Source of the DNA: a virus
IMG/VR virus record: IMGVR_UViG_3300033153_006874
Span: 1 to 33,421 of that record
DNA length: 33,421 bases
Direction: 5' to 3' (one strand)
Part shown: positions 40 to 17,108 of the stretch, one piece after another
How the letters are laid out: every line of letters begins with the position of its first letter
Numbering within the stretch: the stretch's first letter is position 1
Position numbers and translations under genes: made by a program
Notes under the pieces: model-generated
Told to the model about the DNA's origin: nothing
Seen by the model: the letters and a program-made list of their open reading frames with translations, nothing else
The model's database searches: none

Positions 40-60
40 TACAGAAAGGTTGTCATATGA
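1..60 (+). CDS. 3' part of the gene crossing the circular join
   Basis: Twenty codons ending in TGA at 58-60 complete the frame that starts at 33173. Positions 1-39 duplicate 33383-33421, so only positions 40-60 add new sequence (Tyr-Arg-Lys-Val-Val-Ile-stop). The stop overlaps the ATG of the next gene at 57, the same ATGA coupling seen through the rest of this arm. Function unknown. Confidence 0.72.
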   Translation, partial: GVYLVDSITFNNDYRKVVI

Positions 61-338
61 GACGTAGTCTATTAAGTGTGTTAGATCACTATGGTATTCA
101 AATTCAAACTGAGAAATTTAGGGAGGAGCTAGCTGAGCTCTCTTTGGCTCTATGCCGATTTGTTAGCAGCAAGGAAGTAGAGGCTATAAATCCTGTTATC
201 GAGGAAATCGCTGACGTGGAGAATTTGATTGAGCAGTTTAAATATGCGTTTAGAATACAAGATGAAGTTGAGGACATTAGAATATCTAAAATGCAGCGTG
301 AAATTAATAGGATAGAGAATGGACCAAAGAATAGTTAA
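57..338 (+). CDS. MazG-like NTP pyrophosphohydrolase
   Basis: A 93-residue, mostly helical protein with the two acidic motifs of the MazG/all-alpha NTP-PPase fold: EELAE at residues 23-27 and EEIAD at 49-53. In this fold they hold the Mg ions that bind the triphosphate. The family hydrolyses (d)NTPs to monophosphate and pyrophosphate. Phage members are thought to clean the nucleotide pool or lower alarmone signalling; which applies here is unknown. The start overlaps the stop of the junction-crossing gene (ATGA), with AAGG about 8 bases upstream. The length is typical of short phage MazG-like proteins. The call rests on the motifs and helix pattern only. Confidence 0.68.
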   Translation: MRRSLLSVLDHYGIQIQTEKFREELAELSLALCRFVSSKEVEAINPVIEEIADVENLIEQFKYAFRIQDEVEDIRISKMQREINRIENGPKNS

Positions 339-471: not shown

Positions 472-1611
472 ATGCGCTTACTTCCATTATTGTTATTCAG
501 CGTTCTTTCTTGTGCCTTAAACAACCCGCCAGTAGCAGCAGGGGAGGACGTAGCTGGTCCCCCTTGTCATGTACCCGTTAAAATCGAACGAACAGATACT
601 AAGATTGTATTTACTCCCTGTAATGGGGAACCTACTGAGGTAGCGTTTGCTGACCTCAAGGGTGAGCAAGGTCCTGCTGGTAAGCCTGGTGGGGACGGTC
701 CTCGTGGTCCTGCTGGTTCTGGGAGCGTTGATAAAGTTGTTAGCTACTGCATGCATGACGATAACACTCACGTAGCTCGTACAGTCCGAATGAAACAATC
801 AGATATTATCAGCCAAAGGCAAGGCTGGTACGGGATGTACGACCATTCAGATAGTTGTTTGCCACATGAGGAGGGAGCTTGTAACTGTGACCAATGTGGC
901 TTTGGATTTCATGAGGGTCCTAAAGAGCGCAAGGATTACTTTGTGGCGGCCTTAGGTGACTCGATGACTACTGCCTTTAATTCTGGTGGGGAATGGAGTC
1001 AGCCTCAAAATAGCTGGGCTACTGGCGGATTGATTGACTCTCATGTGGAAAAGATAAAGAGAGCGTTTCCTGATAGGGATGTGGGTTACATCAATGTAGC
1101 TTTTCCTGGTGTTACATCTAGTGATCTTAAGAGACAGCTTCTGATAGTCAATCGCTGGACTGTGGACTATGCGACGGTACTAATGGGAGCTAATGACTTG
1201 TGTGCTGGTGGGGTCGATTTGGATCACTATCAGAGACATATGGAAAAGACTCTAGATAGTTTGGTTAGTCATTCGCCTAATATTAAAATCCTGTTATCTG
1301 CCATCCCGGACATCAAACAGGCATTAGAAGTATCGAGGGATAATGACTGTAATCTGGTATGGAAAAAGATCTTGAGGAATTGTCCTGCGGTTCAGGACTT
1401 TAACCTCCTGAGCCATACCTGGGAGGCGATGAATTTCATTTTAGAAACTGTTGCTCTCAAGCACAAGGAAAACGTGATTTTTGCCAATGATGTTAATGAA
1501 AGAAAAATAGAGCCTGGGGATATCTCTAAGGTCGATTGCTTCCACGCATCAGTTTCTGGCCAACAGAAGCTAGCTGACTCTACTTGGAAGCTTGGTTGGT
1601 ACGAACAATGA
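472..1611 (+). CDS. lipoprotein with collagen-like segment and SGNH/GDSL hydrolase domain
   Basis: A 379-residue protein. Residues 1-14 are a lipoprotein signal (MRLLPLLLFSVLSC, lipobox VLSC, Cys14). Residues 64-82 are six Gly-X-Y triplets (GEQGPAGKPGGDGPRGPAG), a short collagen-like linker. A Cys-rich stretch follows (Cys93-Cys142). From about residue 155 there is an SGNH hydrolase: nucleophile Ser164 in GDSMT, Gly213 in block II, Asn241 in GAND, and Asp355-x-x-His358. This family cleaves O-acyl esters in sugars, lipids or peptidoglycan. The predicted product is therefore lipid-anchored at the outer membrane or periplasm with the enzyme held off the surface. It is the last gene of the rightward arm. 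A polysaccharide deacetylase or esterase of the host envelope is plausible; the substrate is unknown. Confidence 0.82.
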   Translation: MRLLPLLLFSVLSCALNNPPVAAGEDVAGPPCHVPVKIERTDTKIVFTPCNGEPTEVAFADLKGEQGPAGKPGGDGPRGPAGSGSVDKVVSYCMHDDNTHVARTVRMKQSDIISQRQGWYGMYDHSDSCLPHEEGACNCDQCGFGFHEGPKERKDYFVAALGDSMTTAFNSGGEWSQPQNSWATGGLIDSHVEKIKRAFPDRDVGYINVAFPGVTSSDLKRQLLIVNRWTVDYATVLMGANDLCAGGVDLDHYQRHMEKTLDSLVSHSPNIKILLSAIPDIKQALEVSRDNDCNLVWKKILRNCPAVQDFNLLSHTWEAMNFILETVALKHKENVIFANDVNERKIEPGDISKVDCFHASVSGQQKLADSTWKLGWYEQ

Positions 1612-1646: not shown

Positions 1647-1907
1647 TCAATACTCTCGTTTGTCTGTGTTGTGAGGTTCTTCGTTATGCTTCGGATTATC
1701 GTCAGTAACCTCTAACGAGAACCAAGCTACTGTTCCGTTATTACAATGGCATCCGAGTCCTTGTACTATCTCGTCACAAGCCTCTAAGACTCCCTCATGA
1801 TCTCTACAGATTTCTTCACAAGCTTCCCAGTGAGCTTTCTTCACTGGGGTAGAGCAGGACGCTAGGAAGAATGTAACGAAATAAGGTGTGATCATGATGA
1901 GCCTCAC
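1647..1907 (-). CDS. small Cys-rich lipoprotein
   Basis: 86 residues with a clear lipoprotein signal (hydrophobic residues 4-17, lipobox LASC, Cys18). The mature part has six further cysteines between about residues 30 and 55 in close spacing (EACEEIC, EACDEI, GCHC), suggesting disulfides or metal binding in the periplasm. The CxC-type end (GCHCNN) is not a CxxCH heme site. Its start overlaps the stop of the cytochrome-like gene before it by four bases (ATGA), so it is the third gene of one operon. Family not recognised. Confidence 0.72.
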   Translation of the reverse strand: MRLIMITPYFVTFFLASCSTPVKKAHWEACEEICRDHEGVLEACDEIVQGLGCHCNNGTVAWFSLEVTDDNPKHNEEPHNTDKREY

Positions 1908-2224
1908 TGTAGGTACTCCAATGCTTTGGATTTGACGAAACCTGATTTATTGGGAGGCATAGTGTCGTCCTGGATCCTCGCTCTTACCTTTGGGCTTGCT
2001 CTAAATCCTGCTTCATCAAGGGGAATAGGAGGAGCTGAGGAATTGTGGCAATTGAAACATGCCTTTTTCATGTCCGCCCAAGTGTAGACCTTAGGTAGAG
2101 GTTTTGGTTTTTCGTCCTCGAAGACTATCTCGGTTCTTTCGTCCTCGAAATATCCGCCACAGGCGACCACAAACATGGTTGTCAGCAACACAAAATAAGT
2201 ACTGATAGCGATACGTTTTATCAT
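1904..2224 (-). CDS. small c-type cytochrome-like lipoprotein
   Basis: 106 residues: lipoprotein signal with lipobox VVAC (Cys22), an acidic/proline-rich linker (30-47), then CFNCH at 56-60, the CxxCH motif for covalent heme c. Met-Pro-Pro at 89-91 could supply the distal heme ligand, as in short cytochrome c domains. The domain is truncated compared with a usual 80-100 residue cytochrome c, so heme binding must be tested. The gene starts one base after the stop of the 635-residue cytochrome-like gene and overlaps the Cys-rich lipoprotein gene, so the three are co-transcribed. An electron-transfer or heme-dependent role in the periplasm is inferred. Confidence 0.72.
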   Translation of the reverse strand: MIKRIAISTYFVLLTTMFVVACGGYFEDERTEIVFEDEKPKPLPKVYTWADMKKACFNCHNSSAPPIPLDEAGFRASPKVRARIQDDTMPPNKSGFVKSKALEYLQ

Positions 2225-2225
2225 G

Positions 2226-4133
2226 CTAGTCCCCTATGGATTGACGGTTTAGCGGTTCTTGTCCAATAAGTAGATCGGCTACCAATTGGTCGAATACATT
2301 ATTGAAAACATCAAAGGCTACAGTTTGGCCGAGAAATATCTGTCCTAAGTCGCCAGCTACTGAGGTCCTTTGGATTTCGTCTGAGCAGGTATTGATCGGA
2401 AATCTAATAAAAGCGCAGATGTCATCAAGGGACCAATTTTTGCGGTATCTGTCTGAGTAGTAGTTGATTGGATCGCCTTGCAGCGTATCGACTCCAATTT
2501 TTGCACGAGTTTTTCTGAATTCGTCATTGAATCTAATGAATGTGGCATCTAATTCCCCTTGTGTTCCGTAGAGCTCCTGAACTAGTAGGACATCGTTTCT
2601 ATCGAAATCCCCGGCGTTTCTGGGATCCAGGACTGAAGCTCTGATCTCATCCTGGAATGGTATCAAGCCTCCTGAATGACACCTGTAGCAGTCAGCAGCG
2701 TTGAGGATTTCGAAGTCTCCATTTACTTTTCCTCCCTCCACATCTACGACGATATCTGTGGGAGCTACGTTTTGTCTTAGGCCAGCAGCATTCCAGAGAG
2801 ACATCTCAAAACCGCCATTGGGTAGTGAGCACAATACTTCTGAGGCGTCGAATAGGAATCTCGCTATACCGACGCCTACTAGGGGGAATTTTGTGAGATT
2901 GGACTCAGCGTTACCGGCAACGTCCTGTGGGTCGAATGTTATTGAGCATTGGCCATCGTCTGAGTCGAAGAATGCTATCAGTCGATTCTTGAATATTCCT
3001 ATAGGGGATTTGTTAGTCCCGCCGAAAGTAGCTCGGAAATCTAAAATGTCCTGCTCGAAGTCCACTCCCTTTAAATCCCAGTAGGCTTCCAGATGGAGAG
3101 GTATACCCATGATGTCATAGTAAGTCTCTGAGTCGAATAGAGCTCCCTCCATGAATTGATCGCCTGTAAGCCATGGTACGTCTGAGCCTACTAGCTCCCT
3201 GAGGAGTTTTCCTTGGTTTGTGACCGATACAAAAACCAGGGAAGAATTGAGCACAATTCGCTCCCAATTCTCAGGGGTCAGTCCTGCGCTCTCTAGATCT
3301 ATCTTACAAGCTCCCTTGATTCTATCTATAGGAACGCATAGGAGCGGGTCATCCTCGACTGTAGACAGGGCATTTAGAGCCTTGTTTATTCCGTTGTAAT
3401 AAATCTGCATTTCCTCAGGGGATGAGCCTAAGTTGGATTTTGTGTCGGCTGTGATGAATCTAGTATTGAGCTGATCACGTCTACTGGACTCTAGGACAGC
3501 GTTGACAGCGTCCCTCTCTAAGTCGTCTAGGGTATTGAAATTGAGTTGAGTCTCACTCTCAGGAGATTGGCACTCGATATCGTTTAATAGGCCATCTGTG
3601 ATCCATTGCTTGAATTTCTCTCGGTCGTCGAAATTGAGAGCTTTGTTATCTGGATAGGGAGGCATCCTTTGGACTTGATCGCCTAGATTGATTCTTCTGT
3701 AGGACTCCTCAGCTAGAGCAGCCATGAATTCGTACTCGTTTAGTCTTAGAGAGCCGTGACAGGAAATGCAGTTTTTCCGGCCGTCTGTTTCTGCTGCTAC
3801 CTTCCCGACTATAGGGAGGATGTCTTTTACAAACGTTACTTTGTTGGCGGACTCGGTTTCGCATTGGCTAGGAGGAGGCTTACACGTTGATTTGATTAGC
3901 TCCCAATTGCCTGAGTCTTTACATTCCTGCTCGATAAAACCTAGGTATCCCTCCTGATCACAGACTAGCTGGCGTTTGTTGCCGACTGGTGAGCCCTGAC
4001 ATGATGTAGGCTCGGTATTAGCTGGTCTCTTTACGGTTATGATGTTTTTGCCTTTGGGGGACCCACAAGCTAAATAGATCACAAATATGACAAAATACAT
4101 GAATGCTATTGCCGGAACCCAAATTTTGTTCAT
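2226..4133 (-). CDS. large lipoprotein with two CxxCH heme motifs (cytochrome c-like)
   Basis: 635 residues. Lipoprotein signal at 1-23 (lipobox YLAC, Cys23). A small Cys-rich segment follows (45-91). A cytochrome c-like domain covers about 98-182, with CISCH at 122-126 and RMPP (Met157) as likely axial ligand; its layout (DILPIV, then CxxCH, then RIN, MPP and a final WI) matches short cytochrome domains of many Bdellovibrionota, Myxococcota and Planctomycetes lipoproteins. A long middle region (200-460) is unassigned. A second motif, CYRCH at 482-486, is followed by a PFQDEIR segment that I recall from uncharacterised proteins of the same groups. AGGAGA lies nine bases before the ATG. It is first gene of the accessory operon at the far end of the late arm. 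Enzymatic role unknown. Confidence 0.78.
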   Translation of the reverse strand: MNKIWVPAIAFMYFVIFVIYLACGSPKGKNIITVKRPANTEPTSCQGSPVGNKRQLVCDQEGYLGFIEQECKDSGNWELIKSTCKPPPSQCETESANKVTFVKDILPIVGKVAAETDGRKNCISCHGSLRLNEYEFMAALAEESYRRINLGDQVQRMPPYPDNKALNFDDREKFKQWITDGLLNDIECQSPESETQLNFNTLDDLERDAVNAVLESSRRDQLNTRFITADTKSNLGSSPEEMQIYYNGINKALNALSTVEDDPLLCVPIDRIKGACKIDLESAGLTPENWERIVLNSSLVFVSVTNQGKLLRELVGSDVPWLTGDQFMEGALFDSETYYDIMGIPLHLEAYWDLKGVDFEQDILDFRATFGGTNKSPIGIFKNRLIAFFDSDDGQCSITFDPQDVAGNAESNLTKFPLVGVGIARFLFDASEVLCSLPNGGFEMSLWNAAGLRQNVAPTDIVVDVEGGKVNGDFEILNAADCYRCHSGGLIPFQDEIRASVLDPRNAGDFDRNDVLLVQELYGTQGELDATFIRFNDEFRKTRAKIGVDTLQGDPINYYSDRYRKNWSLDDICAFIRFPINTCSDEIQRTSVAGDLGQIFLGQTVAFDVFNNVFDQLVADLLIGQEPLNRQSIGD

Positions 4134-4180: not shown

Positions 4181-4453
4181 ATGACACCTAACGCTGACAT
4201 AGTCGCTCTCATGACCACAGAAGCCGGTAGATTACTCATCATGATTTTCTTTTACTTTCTAGCTATTAAGCCAATCAAGAAAGATGTTCACGCTATGGCT
4301 GAGAAAATTAATCTGATTTTCGTTCGGTTAGCACAGGCAGATAGCACAAAGCAGAGAGTAGAGGACATCCGAACAGATGTGGAAAAGTTAGAGAATAGAC
4401 TCCACGCTGTAGAGATCCAGCAGCGTGGTTGTCCTGCTAATCGCCTACAATAA
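4181..4453 (+). CDS. membrane protein with coiled coil, holin candidate
   Basis: 90 residues: a polar start, one hydrophobic span at about 17-30 (RLLIMIFFYFLAIKP), then a charged amphipathic helix (32-80) likely to form a coiled coil. This plan resembles BhlA/UviB-type holins, which have one N-terminal span and a charged coiled tail, and the gene lies beside the endolysin. It is on the opposite strand to its neighbours: divergent from the cytochrome operon (47 bases apart) and overlapping the end of the leftward 99-residue gene by 17 bases. The ribosome site is weak (AGGCTGAG region). A spanin-like or regulatory membrane protein is also possible. Confidence 0.5.
   Translation: MTPNADIVALMTTEAGRLLIMIFFYFLAIKPIKKDVHAMAEKINLIFVRLAQADSTKQRVEDIRTDVEKLENRLHAVEIQQRGCPANRLQ
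4402..4428 (-). terminator. hairpin just past the end of the leftward late genes
   Basis: CCACGCTG (4402-4409) and CAGCGTGG (4421-4428) form a perfect 8-bp stem with an 11-base loop. It begins nine bases beyond the last leftward morphogenesis stop (4437) and lies inside the end of the holin candidate. Only a weak T-rich stretch follows on the minus strand. It may partly separate the late genes from the cytochrome operon or may be chance within coding sequence. Confidence 0.3.
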
Positions 4454-4736
4454 CGTCTTTAATTTCGTCTACAGCTTCCATCAAGTCGATTTCAAGCTCT
4501 AGGAGGTTTTCGCCGTCCTGGTCGCTATCAATCATTAACTTCAGTTTTGTGGCTGAGAATTCGAAGCCTACTAGCTGAGCTCCCTCCATTTTTTCGCCTT
4601 TTTGTAACGCTTCCTGGATTCCCTCAGTGATATTTAGTTTTAGATCTAGGACCTTGTCCCCGTCCTCATTTGAGTCTACGCCTAGGACTAACATGCCGTT
4701 TTGTACTTCATATGATAAAACGCTCATTTTGGCCAT
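4437..4736 (-). CDS. small acidic protein with internal duplication
   Basis: 99 residues built from two similar halves: VDSNEDGDKVLDLKLN followed by a helix, and IDSDQDGENLLELEID followed by a helix. The DxNxDG and DxDxDG strings resemble calcium-binding loops, though the usual acidic residue at loop position 12 is one place early. No signal peptide or membrane span. It overlaps the endolysin stop; a second ATG at 4727 makes an ATGA overlap and may be the true start. Small proteins with this style often sit next to phage lysis or virion genes, but the function is unknown. Confidence 0.65.
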   Translation of the reverse strand: MAKMSVLSYEVQNGMLVLGVDSNEDGDKVLDLKLNITEGIQEALQKGEKMEGAQLVGFEFSATKLKLMIDSDQDGENLLELEIDLMEAVDEIKDVIVGD

Positions 4737-5269
4737 CTATAGCCGAGGATTTGGTCTTTAGAATACGACGATATTTTAACACAATTTCCCTGATTGCCAC
4801 CTAGGAGCATGATTCTGGTTTCGTCCATAGGGTCAACACCCATATAAAAGCCTACATGGCCTGAGCCTGACTCTAGGGATTTTCTCCATAAAACGACTAT
4901 ACAGCCCTGGTAAGGCTCTATGGGGATACCCCAAGTTTCAAAGCTTCTGGCTCTAGCGCTTCGGGTAGATGGCCAGCCTGCTTTCTCTAAGCAAAAACAG
5001 GTAAATGCTGCACACCAGGGAATCTCGTCATTTTTGAAATCGTAAGTTGTAGAGCGTCCATACTCTAGGATCCTGGCATTGTCCTTTCTGCCAGGGATTT
5101 CACAGTTTCCAATTTCTCCTAGAGCGATAGGAAGCCAGTCGCGTTTTACAGGGGTATCTGGAAGCTGAGCAGCTACAACGGTTTGTACCGCTGGTTTGTT
5201 GCCGAAATACTTTAGGATGTATTTGACGACTAAATCCCAGGGGATGAATCCTAGTAGCTTCCATGGCAT
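4724..5269 (-). CDS. endolysin, CHAP-like cysteine peptidase (TIGR02594-type)
   Basis: 181 residues. A hydrophobic/amphipathic N-terminus (1-23) is followed by a CHAP-like NlpC/P60 fold: catalytic Cys in PWCAAFTCFC (about 85-94), His in SGHVGFYMG (about 137-145) and the closing GGNQGNCVKIS motif. These match the TIGR02594 family, common as phage peptidoglycan peptidases or amidases. It would cut peptide bonds in the murein at lysis. It follows the large ejection protein genes and is coupled to the small protein downstream. AGGGG before the ATG at 5269 lies in a tight GGGG/CCCC inverted repeat. The N-terminus has no cleavable signal, so a holin is expected. Confidence 0.8.
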   Translation of the reverse strand: MPWKLLGFIPWDLVVKYILKYFGNKPAVQTVVAAQLPDTPVKRDWLPIALGEIGNCEIPGRKDNARILEYGRSTTYDFKNDEIPWCAAFTCFCLEKAGWPSTRSARARSFETWGIPIEPYQGCIVVLWRKSLESGSGHVGFYMGVDPMDETRIMLLGGNQGNCVKISSYSKDQILGYRWPK

Positions 5270-11279: not shown

Positions 11280-11795
11280 TCATGCCTCTATTTTGTTAAG
11301 AGTGGCGTAGCTGCCTTGAATTCTAATCGCCGCCGCATTGTACGCTCGTCCCGCCGCGTCCTCGTCTGTGAAGAAACCCAAGCATTCAGTCCTTCCGTTT
11401 CCCCTAATCCTCGCTCTGTATTTCTGACGAACCTTGTCGAAATATACTCCTTTGTGCCTAGATGACCCCGAAACCTTATACCTGGTGTTGTGCATATTGT
11501 TTAATCGACTCGCTGGCCTTAGGTTTTCAATTCTGTCGTTACTAGTATCCCTGTCGATATGGTCAATTTCAGCCGGTAGCCATCCATGATGGAAAAGGAA
11601 GATTAATCTATGTGTTCTATGTCTCTTCTTAAAAAACCCAATTTGCCGATATCCTTTTTTGTCTGGTCCACCGGCTTCATCCCCCACTCGTGCTACATTT
11701 CTTGTTGATGTTCTCTCTCTCCAAAATAATTTGCCCTCACTGTATGTGAAATGCTTAATCATTAAAGACTGTGTAATTTTTCTACCCCATGCCAT
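11280..11795 (-). CDS. HNH homing endonuclease with AP2 DNA-binding domain
   Basis: 171 residues. An HNH nuclease core occupies about 60-95 (THRLIFLFHHGWLPAEIDHI with His79, then Asn86/Asn91 and NLRP). An AP2/ERF-type DNA-binding domain covers 112-171 (RHKGVYF, YRARI, LGFFTDEDAAGRAY). This HNH-AP2 pair is typical of free-standing phage homing endonucleases, which cut a target allele and copy themselves in. It is wedged between two tail-region genes: its ATG follows the stop of the 831-residue gene directly, and its end abuts a gene lacking a normal start. The 8-base string TCTAGCGA occurs at both borders (11270-11277 and 11795-11802). Confidence 0.85.
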   Translation of the reverse strand: MAWGRKITQSLMIKHFTYSEGKLFWRERTSTRNVARVGDEAGGPDKKGYRQIGFFKKRHRTHRLIFLFHHGWLPAEIDHIDRDTSNDRIENLRPASRLNNMHNTRYKVSGSSRHKGVYFDKVRQKYRARIRGNGRTECLGFFTDEDAAGRAYNAAAIRIQGSYATLNKIEA

Positions 11796-15508: not shown

Positions 15509-16287
15509 TCGCCGACTCCTAAGTGTGACAGTAAGATTTGGTAATCAAATGAGCCTGAAGCTGATCCAGCGCTTACGACGCCTGTCACTCTTAAGTCTGT
15601 GTACTCATCTATAAATAGTGGGGACCTTGGAGGCAAATGGTTACTGCCCTCTAGGCCGGGAGCTTCAAATAGTACCTGCCAGCTTGAGAATGGGACCGTG
15701 TTGTCATTCGCTCGTGTTCTTTTGTATACGTTGTAAGAAACTGACTTAGATGTATCAACTGAGGCGTGCATATCAATAATATAGGCTTTATGACCCCTCG
15801 GGATTGTGTAATGAGCTCCCTGAGTCTGACCTTGGTTAGTTGAGATATAAGCTTGTGTTGACCCGGCACTAGATACTCTGATTGTGACGTTACCAGCGTT
15901 TGATCCGCCGTATGCTCCCGCTTGGGATACTACAGCTCTGAATACTCTGATGAATGTGGTTGTCGTAGCTGTGCTGGCGCTAGTACCGGCTGTTGCTACA
16001 GTTTCAGATGCCTCATTCCAGTTCTCGTCTAATCCCTCTATGGTAATCTCTCTCGCTCCTGTTCCAGCAGCAGTATCGTTTGTGCTCGATGAGATAACCT
16101 CTATTGTTGCGGCTGTAGTTAGGTAAGTGAGTGTGCCGCCAGCTGCCCAGATGTCCTCGGCTGTAGTGCCGATTGTTGCGTTGATTCCGAATTTGTTGAC
16201 CATAGTAACGGACGGTACGTTGCCACTTGCTATGTCAAAGTAGAAATCTGAGCTATCTGAGCCCGGTATGTTTATGATTCTAGTCAT
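15505..16287 (-). CDS. structural protein, phage capsid/tail beta-protein family
   Basis: 260 residues, Thr/Ser/Ala-rich and almost all beta. Features include YFDIASGNVPSVTMVNKFG near the N-terminus, a GAREITIEGLDENWNEASET segment (about 75-95) and HYTIPRGHKAYI near 165. I recall this order of segments in abundant uncharacterised virion proteins of marine and environmental podo- and siphophages. Role (head fibre, decoration or tail) unknown. It overlaps the lipoprotein gene before it by one base and the 110-residue gene after it by four. Confidence 0.6.
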   Translation of the reverse strand: MTRIINIPGSDSSDFYFDIASGNVPSVTMVNKFGINATIGTTAEDIWAAGGTLTYLTTAATIEVISSSTNDTAAGTGAREITIEGLDENWNEASETVATAGTSASTATTTTFIRVFRAVVSQAGAYGGSNAGNVTIRVSSAGSTQAYISTNQGQTQGAHYTIPRGHKAYIIDMHASVDTSKSVSYNVYKRTRANDNTVPFSSWQVLFEAPGLEGSNHLPPRSPLFIDEYTDLRVTGVVSAGSASGSFDYQILLSHLGVGE

Positions 16288-17108
16288 TAGCTAACTCCCA
16301 ACAATAGTTTACATGTGAATATTCGCTCTGCTAATTCGCAGTTTTCGTCATCGCATCGAACGTAGTCCCCGACTTGATTGTCATCATCAAGGCACAAGTT
16401 GATAGCGCTATCAACTGGCCCACCGTATCTAGCGCTAAGAGCCGCATAAAAGCCGCTAGTAGGAATGCGGTCACTATGTTCGTGAATGCGATTCCGCATA
16501 CTATCGCTGATTTGTCCATTTTCTAGTGTTCCTGTTAAATGGATGAATAGCATCTGTAAGTGAGCTTGGTAGTCTGTTAGGCCGCTTGGGTAGACGTTTG
16601 AGACTTCTGTGTACCCGTAGTCGTGCCCTAGGACTCTCGCTGCTTTGTACCATAGGCCGATTAGAGCGGGAGTGTAATAAGTTCGATTGATTGCTCCCTC
16701 GCCCATGATCCAGCCGTTTTCATCGCCGTATTCTATGTGACGCTCAATCGCTGCTAGGTTCTTCTTTTCTATCAGGCAATTCAGGAGGCCGAGGCTCATG
16801 TCTCTTGAGAAAGATGAGGCTGACCTTGTGTCTGCGAAACACGTTTTTGATGGCGTTCTGTAATATCTCCCATCGACTCCAGCTGATTCCAGATCCGTGA
16901 TATTCAAACATGCTTTTCCACTCCACAACATTGAGTCACAAGATTTTGATACTAGCCAGCCGTTTTCGTCTGACAGGGATTCTGCTTCTAGCTCTAGTTC
17001 TGCGAGTTTTTCGCGTACCAAACTCGTGTCTAGGACTACCTCATTTCTTGGACTCGGTAGAACCTTTGAGCACGAGATCAGTATGAATGTTAGAGCTAGT
17101 AGTTTCAT
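16287..17108 (-). CDS. lipoprotein of unknown function inside the tail module
   Basis: 273 residues with a short lipoprotein signal (MKLLALTFILISC, lipobox LISC, Cys13). The mature part is helical with conserved-looking stretches DENGWLVSKSCDSMLW (about 47-62), SRDMSLGLLNCLIE, GWIMGEGAINRTYYTP and GLTDYQAHLQML, plus a Cys-rich end. The Trp/Gly/Asp pattern could fit a helical-barrel glycan-active protein, but no catalytic pair can be named. It is coupled by TAATG-type overlaps to the tail fibre gene before and the structural gene after it. A lipid anchor is unusual for a virion protein, so it may act on the host membrane, or the hydrophobic start may serve in the virion. Confidence 0.62.
   Translation of the reverse strand: MKLLALTFILISCSKVLPSPRNEVVLDTSLVREKLAELELEAESLSDENGWLVSKSCDSMLWSGKACLNITDLESAGVDGRYYRTPSKTCFADTRSASSFSRDMSLGLLNCLIEKKNLAAIERHIEYGDENGWIMGEGAINRTYYTPALIGLWYKAARVLGHDYGYTEVSNVYPSGLTDYQAHLQMLFIHLTGTLENGQISDSMRNRIHEHSDRIPTSGFYAALSARYGGPVDSAINLCLDDDNQVGDYVRCDDENCELAERIFTCKLLLGVS

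Follow-up and report, generated by a model that had tools for sequence, protein, structure and literature searches.

A three-gene block of a small tailed phage appears to encode exported c-type cytochromes, the largest of them very probably a two-heme protein, and related gene pairs are present in about 20 other phage records. The window, i.e. the whole stretch analysed here, is the 33,421-base IMG/VR virus contig IMGVR_UViG_3300033153_006874, with 39 predicted genes (10,531 amino acids). Genes 1, 2 and 3 (positions 1647-4133) are all leftward and closely packed, genes 1 and 2 being separated by 1 nt and genes 2 and 3 overlapping by 4 nt. All three predicted products have a lipobox-like start after a hydrophobic stretch, with the lipobox cysteine at Cys23 (LAC), Cys22 (VAC) and Cys18 (LASC), respectively. 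The gene 1 product carries CISCH at residues 122-126, RMPP at 156-159 and CYRCH at 482-486, and that of gene 2 carries CFNCH at 56-60 and TMPP at 88-91. The original prediction had described three leftward lipoprotein genes with these heme c motifs in the first two and a cysteine-rich third product, and each of these elements was recovered. Gene 3 contains neither CxxCH nor another heme motif, and the idea that it encodes a heme protein was dropped for lack of CxxCH. From composition, 0.014 CxxCH motifs are predicted over the 39 genes; three are observed, all in genes 1 and 2, and none of 2000 protein shuffles reached this number.

Two domains are recognised in gene 1 (Table 1). Its N-terminal module matches a hidden Markov model (HMM) of phage small cytochromes and cellular PSCyt1 modules, with an E-value of 4.5e-7 for the full sequence and 3e-4 for the domain. 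It resembles the PSCyt1 (PF07635) modules of planctomycetes in its CxxCH..MPP..WI layout, and cellular relatives place PSCyt1 before the same large domain. It differs in that it falls below the Pfam cut-off for PSCyt1, and likewise for Cytochrome_CBB3 (0.016), and in that its partner domain has no Pfam model. PF07635 is matched by 7 of 22 members of the family, the best at 6e-10. With tblastn, the large C-terminal domain gave matches to the C-terminal part of a 'c-type cytochrome' encoded by a Neorhizobium plasmid (WP_227705619, 6e-11) and to an open reading frame of the 595-kb huge phage LR756511 (1e-2). Using a three-row alignment built on these leads, relatives were retrieved from IMG/VR and bacterial genomes; a 12-row alignment offered no stretch of sufficient conservation for scanning. 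In alignment A7, which comprises the window protein and 20 relatives, the large-domain CxxCH never varies, and D, F, Y, S, R and G residues are likewise invariant. Identity of gene 1 to the aligned relatives is 17-26% over the full length, mostly about 20%, and at this distance R384 and E432 are also conserved; both could be distal-pocket residues. A protein family lacking a Pfam model is uncovered. Nothing credible was found among PDB sequences by phmmer and profile searches.

Predicted fold of the large domain

Two AlphaFold models, one of the whole gene 1 product and one of the isolated large domain from a planctomycete relative, were set against PDB structures with VIA-align run on Foldseek candidates; the models contain no heme. 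For the gene 1 model (predicted template modelling score (pTM) 0.68; predicted local distance difference test about 90 over most of residues 200-400), ranks 1-7 were all cytochrome c'-beta/P460 chains, with Z 5.0-5.9 (7ead 5.9, 9hrk 5.7). For the planctomycete domain (pTM 0.85), this family occupied ranks 1-11 (Z 4.4-6.4). The comparison with 7ead gave Z 6.4 and a root mean square deviation of 3.3 over 102/135 residues, and the next unrelated chain had Z 3.4. The predicted fold has five antiparallel strands, in agreement with the published c'-beta/P460 fold. In both models the aligned region ends 12 residues past the CxxCH histidine, versus about 15 in McCP-beta; the aligned M. capsulatus c'-beta chain ends at residue 138, and the proximal histidine of this protein is residue 123 (PMC6427953). 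This agreement is informative because the models are heme-free and yet match a heme c family that has its CxxCH near the C-terminal end. On the basis of these models, a c'-beta/P460-like fold of the large domain is probable, with CYRCH predicted at the place of the heme in that superfamily, and the cytochrome-like nature proposed in the original prediction gains a predicted cytochrome-type fold around the second CxxCH.

The likeness to the c'-beta/P460 superfamily (7ead, 6hih, 9hrk; PMC11928373, PMC6427953) thus lies in the predicted five-stranded beta-sheet, in a CxxCH close to the end of the domain and, possibly, in the conserved Arg and Glu, which may occupy pocket positions. The difference is that the gene 1 domain is part of a region of about 420 residues with an extra N-terminal part, and that a second heme module is either part of the same protein or its partner. 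Phages are not mentioned in a 2025 review of the superfamily (PMC11928373). The Lys that is cross-linked to heme is conserved in all 144 P460 (PMC6427953). Alignment A7 has no invariant or nearly invariant Lys; by eye, a Lys is present in the matching strand of 11 of 18 PF16694 proteins. None of the 22 members matched PF16694, and hhalign against 18 PF16694 proteins gave a probability of 31%. The large domain is therefore not a P460 proper. Hydroxylamine oxidation as in P460 was also considered and was dropped, the cross-link Lys being missing.

The CxxCH motifs could be disulfide or metal motifs rather than heme sites, an idea in line with the 17 cysteines of gene 1, some of them in a Cys-rich stretch ahead of the first CxxCH, and with the Cys-rich gene 3 that has no heme motif. 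It is made highly improbable by the known heme c context of both gene 1 motifs, i.e. Met-Pro-Pro and the c'-beta/P460 fold, and by the fact that c'-beta/P460 chains ranked best in a structure comparison that is blind to heme. We regard gene 1 with good confidence as encoding a two-heme cytochrome.

The cytochrome pair in phages and bacteria

In other phages the two heme parts are split, a large cytochrome gene being followed by a small CxxCH..MPP gene. This form was found in 20 distinct records of up to 595 kb (L002, L013-L020, L021, L022, L023, the planctomycete prophage L044, L079, L081, L083, L085, L090, L093 and L100), leaving out the duplicates L007 and L008 (same as L021) and L084 (same as L083). 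The small partner neighbours the large gene in 17 of the 20, with one 103-aa gene between them in L044. The other three are L019 and L023, which are cut there by the contig end, and L022, where none was seen. The window follows the same large-then-small order, with gene 2 at the position of the small partner, though gene 1 itself is fused and, judging from its sequence, is of the cellular-type architecture. The fusion of the two heme parts in bacteria and in the window, and their occurrence as neighbouring genes in phages, argues that they act together. When 13 records including the window were tested for a terminase, 8 proved to have one. In L044, a terminase (Terminase_6N, 2.8e-8) and a portal (Phage_portal_2, 1.5e-18) share one bacterial contig with the cassette. 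The claim made for the window, that a tailed phage encodes membrane-anchored cytochrome-like proteins, stands. A conserved secreted protein without Pfam match (L002:6755-7531 and homologs in L014, L015, L017, L018 and L019) heads the cassette, ahead of the protease.

In the tree, 12 phage or prophage copies form one group against 18 cellular copies (100/99). The fused protein is patchily distributed in cells, occurring in Planctomycetota, Alphaproteobacteria (Roseibium, Nitratireductor, Neorhizobium) and an Acidobacterium, and it is rare: among the genomes sampled, a copy was present in 1 of 118 other Planctomycetota and in 1 of 248 other Pseudomonadota. One planctomycete genome contains six copies, one of which is the prophage copy. 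In nearly all cellular relatives the large domain is preceded by a CxxCH..MP module and often followed by WD40, FGE-sulfatase or Ig-like parts (by eye). About 18 cellular loci were surveyed, and 5 of them have genes for caspase-like (C14) peptidases in their neighbourhood (e.g. L033, C14 4e-26). Four caspase-like genes surround one cellular cytochrome copy in L052 (G220:C1:975500-992500), and in a planctomycete genome (L035:1-2490) a Ser/Thr protein kinase-like domain, recognised by eye, precedes the two-heme cytochrome in one fused protein.

The gene block might also be host DNA, either a bacterial remnant on the edge of a provirus contig or a misassembly, a concern raised in the original prediction. 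In favour are its distance of 1.6 kb to the contig end, the cellular look of gene 1, and single-protein scans of IMG/VR, which found no close relatives of gene 1, the terminase or the GDSL protein. However, a MazG-like phage gene lies outside the block, the GC content of the block is continuous with its flanks, and in a planctomycete prophage a related cassette is seen in situ, on a single bacterial contig. The endolysin is followed on its right by tail, head, portal and terminase genes, and early-type genes on the forward strand at either contig end point to a permuted genome that is almost complete. A host-flank or chimeric origin is unlikely, and the chimera was dropped in view of the phage genes on both flanks and the even GC; host DNA in general is very improbable.

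Proteases upstream of the cassette

A protease gene of one of four types (Table 1) is located one to three genes upstream of the cytochromes in 15 of the 18 phage records with upstream sequence. As to the others, L022 has a C39-like protein recognised by motif only, and L015 and L085 have no adjacent protease. Some of the C1 proteases score below the Pfam cut-off and were assigned through homology to members above it. Among the first twelve loci, all matches to these proteases are in the upstream slot, except for a C39-like gene in L015. Seven distinct contigs, retrieved once the pattern was already known, served as a test set: the small partner was present in 7/7 and the protease in 4/5 of those with upstream sequence. 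An N-terminal hydrophobic signal is missing in 11 of 12 proteases tested, whereas the cytochromes have one, and the protease of the L044 prophage combines PG_binding_1 (7e-9) with matrixin. The upstream proteases look endolysin-like, since they mostly lack a signal and one has PG_binding_1. In the window, none of the four types is directly upstream; there is instead a CHAP endolysin two genes away. The parallel with the protease slot is suggestive only, given this distance and the opposite-strand reading frame in between. A papain-type protease gene in L014 (4639-6555) has an intein/Hint insertion (Intein_splicing 6e-10). A small helical, amphipathic, repeat-like protein is encoded beside the protease in L002:8349-8825, L017:9164-9679, L018:9002-9676, L023:7570-8130 and L021:4568-5035, and could be a candidate membrane-active partner.

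Table 1. Features of the window and protease genes upstream of the phage cassette
Feature	Position or record	Strand	Motif, match or basis
Gene 1, 635-aa predicted lipoprotein, two heme c motifs; PSCyt1-like module and P460/c'-beta-like domain	2226..4133	-	
Gene 1, N-terminal cytochrome module, aa 119-187	3573..3779	-	CISCH 3756-3770, RMPP 3657-3668, then PSCyt1-type W-I-x-x-G tail
Gene 1, large C-terminal domain, aa 200-625	2259..3536	-	Outside all Pfam families; homologous to cellular and phage proteins
Gene 1, part of large domain with predicted cytochrome c'-beta/P460 fold, aa 339-498	2640..3119	-	CYRCH 2676-2690; VIA-align
Gene 2, 106-aa predicted lipoprotein, putative small c-type cytochrome	1904..2224	-	CFNCH 2045-2059, TMPP
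Gene 3, 86-aa Cys-rich predicted lipoprotein, GTG start	1647..1907	-	Weak match to phrog_6873 (unknown function), E 0.0046
MazG-like pyrophosphohydrolase, phage-type, flanking the block on the left	57..338	+	phrog_2245, 4e-23
GDSL/SGNH esterase, lipobox-like start, short collagen-like stretch; convergent with the block	472..1611	+	PF13472, 1.5e-11
90-aa open reading frame, one hydrophobic stretch and coiled tail; holin-like by eye only	4181..4453	+	Sequence
99-aa acidic protein, between endolysin and block	4437..4736	-	
CHAP-type endolysin (papain-like fold), two genes upstream of the block	4724..5269	-	phrog_1259 tail lysozyme, 1e-33; CHAP 9e-4, below Pfam cut-off
Papain-type C1 protease (8)	L002, L014, L017, L018, L019, L079, L081, L083		
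Matrixin M10 (4)	L013, L020, L044, L100		L013 2e-24; L020 7e-16; L044 7e-18
Astacin (1)	L016		3e-6
Subtilase S8 (2)	L023, L021		L023 4e-53; L021 3e-56

Proposed role in the envelope and its alternatives

The best explanation overall, to which we give about an even chance, is a two-heme redox module that is targeted to the envelope and linked to lysis. Its genes would belong to the lysis end of the genome, being close to the endolysin in the window and, in most other phages with such a pair, next to a lysin-like protease that mostly has no signal. The products of genes 1 and 2 would leave the cytoplasm through Sec, receive a lipid anchor and obtain their heme from the cytochrome c maturation (Ccm) system of the host. 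The N-terminal class-I/PSCyt1-like heme (CISCH, with the Met of RMPP) may exchange electrons with the C-terminal beta-sheet heme domain, whose open heme site could bind or turn over a small ligand (nitric oxide (NO), peroxide or similar), and gene 2 could be a second small electron carrier. The module would act in the envelope late in infection, by altering the redox or respiratory state or by removing a reactive small molecule, and lysis by the neighbouring hydrolase might thereby be timed or made efficient. For the phage clade, a functional link with the lysis/protease slot could equally well hold or fail; for the phage of the window it is somewhat doubtful. Any particular chemistry of the heme module can be proposed only speculatively. 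The functions listed in the original prediction (electron rerouting, redox or peroxide defence, superinfection block, help in lysis) remain guesses, and its interpretation as a whole is partly supported. The grounds for rejection that it named, namely no predicted cytochrome fold around the motifs, loss of the motifs in homologs, or a host-derived chimera, were checked, and none held.

Seen once, such genes could be a stray capture. The presence of the pair in about 20 diverse phage records, and the fact that the cytochromes stay while the neighbouring protease varies across unrelated catalytic types, suggest a conserved function in which these phages would rely on the host for cytochrome c maturation. 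A redox device placed in the host envelope, so far undescribed, seems to be at work in phages. To our knowledge, no exported heme protein is part of a phage lysis or envelope system.

Several points weigh against this interpretation. Heme binding by genes 1 and 2 is predicted from motifs and fold. In Pfam, NCBIfam and PHROGs no cytochrome family matched the window proteins above cut-off, gene 1 had no Pfam or NCBIfam match above cut-off at all, and gene 2 alone is weakly assigned (HMM E-value 0.007). All fold scores are moderate (Z below 8), Foldseek gave no match at E 0.001 in PDB or BFVD, and the hhalign probability is owed mainly to the CxxCH region. Gene 1 lies on the cellular side of the tree, its branch being very long, but a topology that groups it with the phages is not rejected by the approximately unbiased test (p 0.44), and it is a possible member of the phage cassette family. 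The protease types share ancestry within each type, and the 15 records thus represent about four types and not 15 independent events. Finally, the 99-aa gene and the opposite-strand reading frame separate the window endolysin from the gene block, and a shared transcript is not necessary.

The main rival is that gene 1 is a moron, serving in lysogenic conversion, or an auxiliary metabolic gene, namely a captured host two-heme oxidoreductase used in respiration or in tolerance to NO or peroxide and unrelated to lysis. The cellular architecture and tree position of gene 1, the existence of cellular homologs and the location of the block at a late/early gene junction, a frequent moron site, would all fit. 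So would the c'-beta proteins, proposed as NO-binding stress proteins (PMC11928373), and the known phage SoxD genes with cytochrome c domains (PMC8190135). Yet the phage clade is monophyletic and its protease neighbour persistent, and since cellular relatives are rare the protein is not a standard respiratory component. We consider this rival fairly unlikely, and less so than the following one. Small phage lipoproteins often exclude superinfection (Cor/Llp type), and the lipoproteins of the window could likewise block receptors or DNA entry or remodel the surface, the heme being incidental or structural. Five proteins of the phage have a lipobox-like start, which includes a further one encoded at 16287-17108 and makes five lipoprotein-like genes in one 33-kb phage. 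Such a role is very unlikely in view of the heme motif, R384 and E432 being kept at about 20% identity, and of the relatives in other phages, which mostly have plain signal sequences (by eye) and are still paired with a second cytochrome.

Returning to a redox module tied to lysis, a more specific version can be formulated. Many tailed phages (up to 600 kb) would share a lysis-stage cassette made of a lysin-like protease and an exported heme pair, in which the cytochromes belong to the lysis machinery as a redox or small-ligand trigger at the envelope. The bacterial fused form near caspase-like proteases would be its cellular counterpart, with a heme sensor governing a protease. This version is rather improbable as it stands. 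The caspase-associated cellular loci (Neorhizobium plasmid, Isosphaeraceae and others) have the same fused cytochrome with a C14 peptidase nearby, but this association is not universal among cellular copies and is not found in phages. Another system to compare, by its description, is the Metzincin-TIMP-like (Mtz-Tim) pair of Listeria, which is of phage origin and also places a metzincin beside an envelope lipoprotein (PMC8235301). This pair sensitises cells to phage lysins, an example of lysis being modulated by a phage protease together with an envelope partner (PMC8235301). In contrast to the cassette, Tim is TIMP-like and not a cytochrome, and its metzincin is secreted, whereas the proteases found here are mostly signal-less.

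The original prediction had called the window genes not a described system. This holds for the cassette, as neither a phage protease-cytochrome cassette nor the large-domain family is described in the open-access PMC literature searched. It does not hold for phage cytochrome c domains in general, as SoxD shows (PMC8190135). The phage SoxD and sulfur-oxidation auxiliary genes resemble the present genes in encoding a cytochrome c domain, but belong to another family and another context and extend a known host pathway; two SoxD-type genes have their heme motifs missing (PMC8190135). In the same literature, phage cytochromes were found only as SoxD auxiliary genes, besides heme-synthesis genes, and the main text of the huge-phage paper does not mention cytochromes (PMC7162821). 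The protease-cytochrome cassette, being undescribed in the literature searched, is thus new as a system, made of known folds and with a proposed function.

As to the remaining genes of the window, the best or only match of its terminase, portal and capsid is in the Silvanigrella aquatica phage CP017838, and the host is therefore likely to be of a Bdellovibrionota type; no CxxCH gene was found in that phage. The PHROG search gave no match for the 90-aa open reading frame. The GDSL/SGNH esterase is given as context. An HNH endonuclease gene (11280-11795; phrog_99, 9e-53) is inserted among the tail genes.

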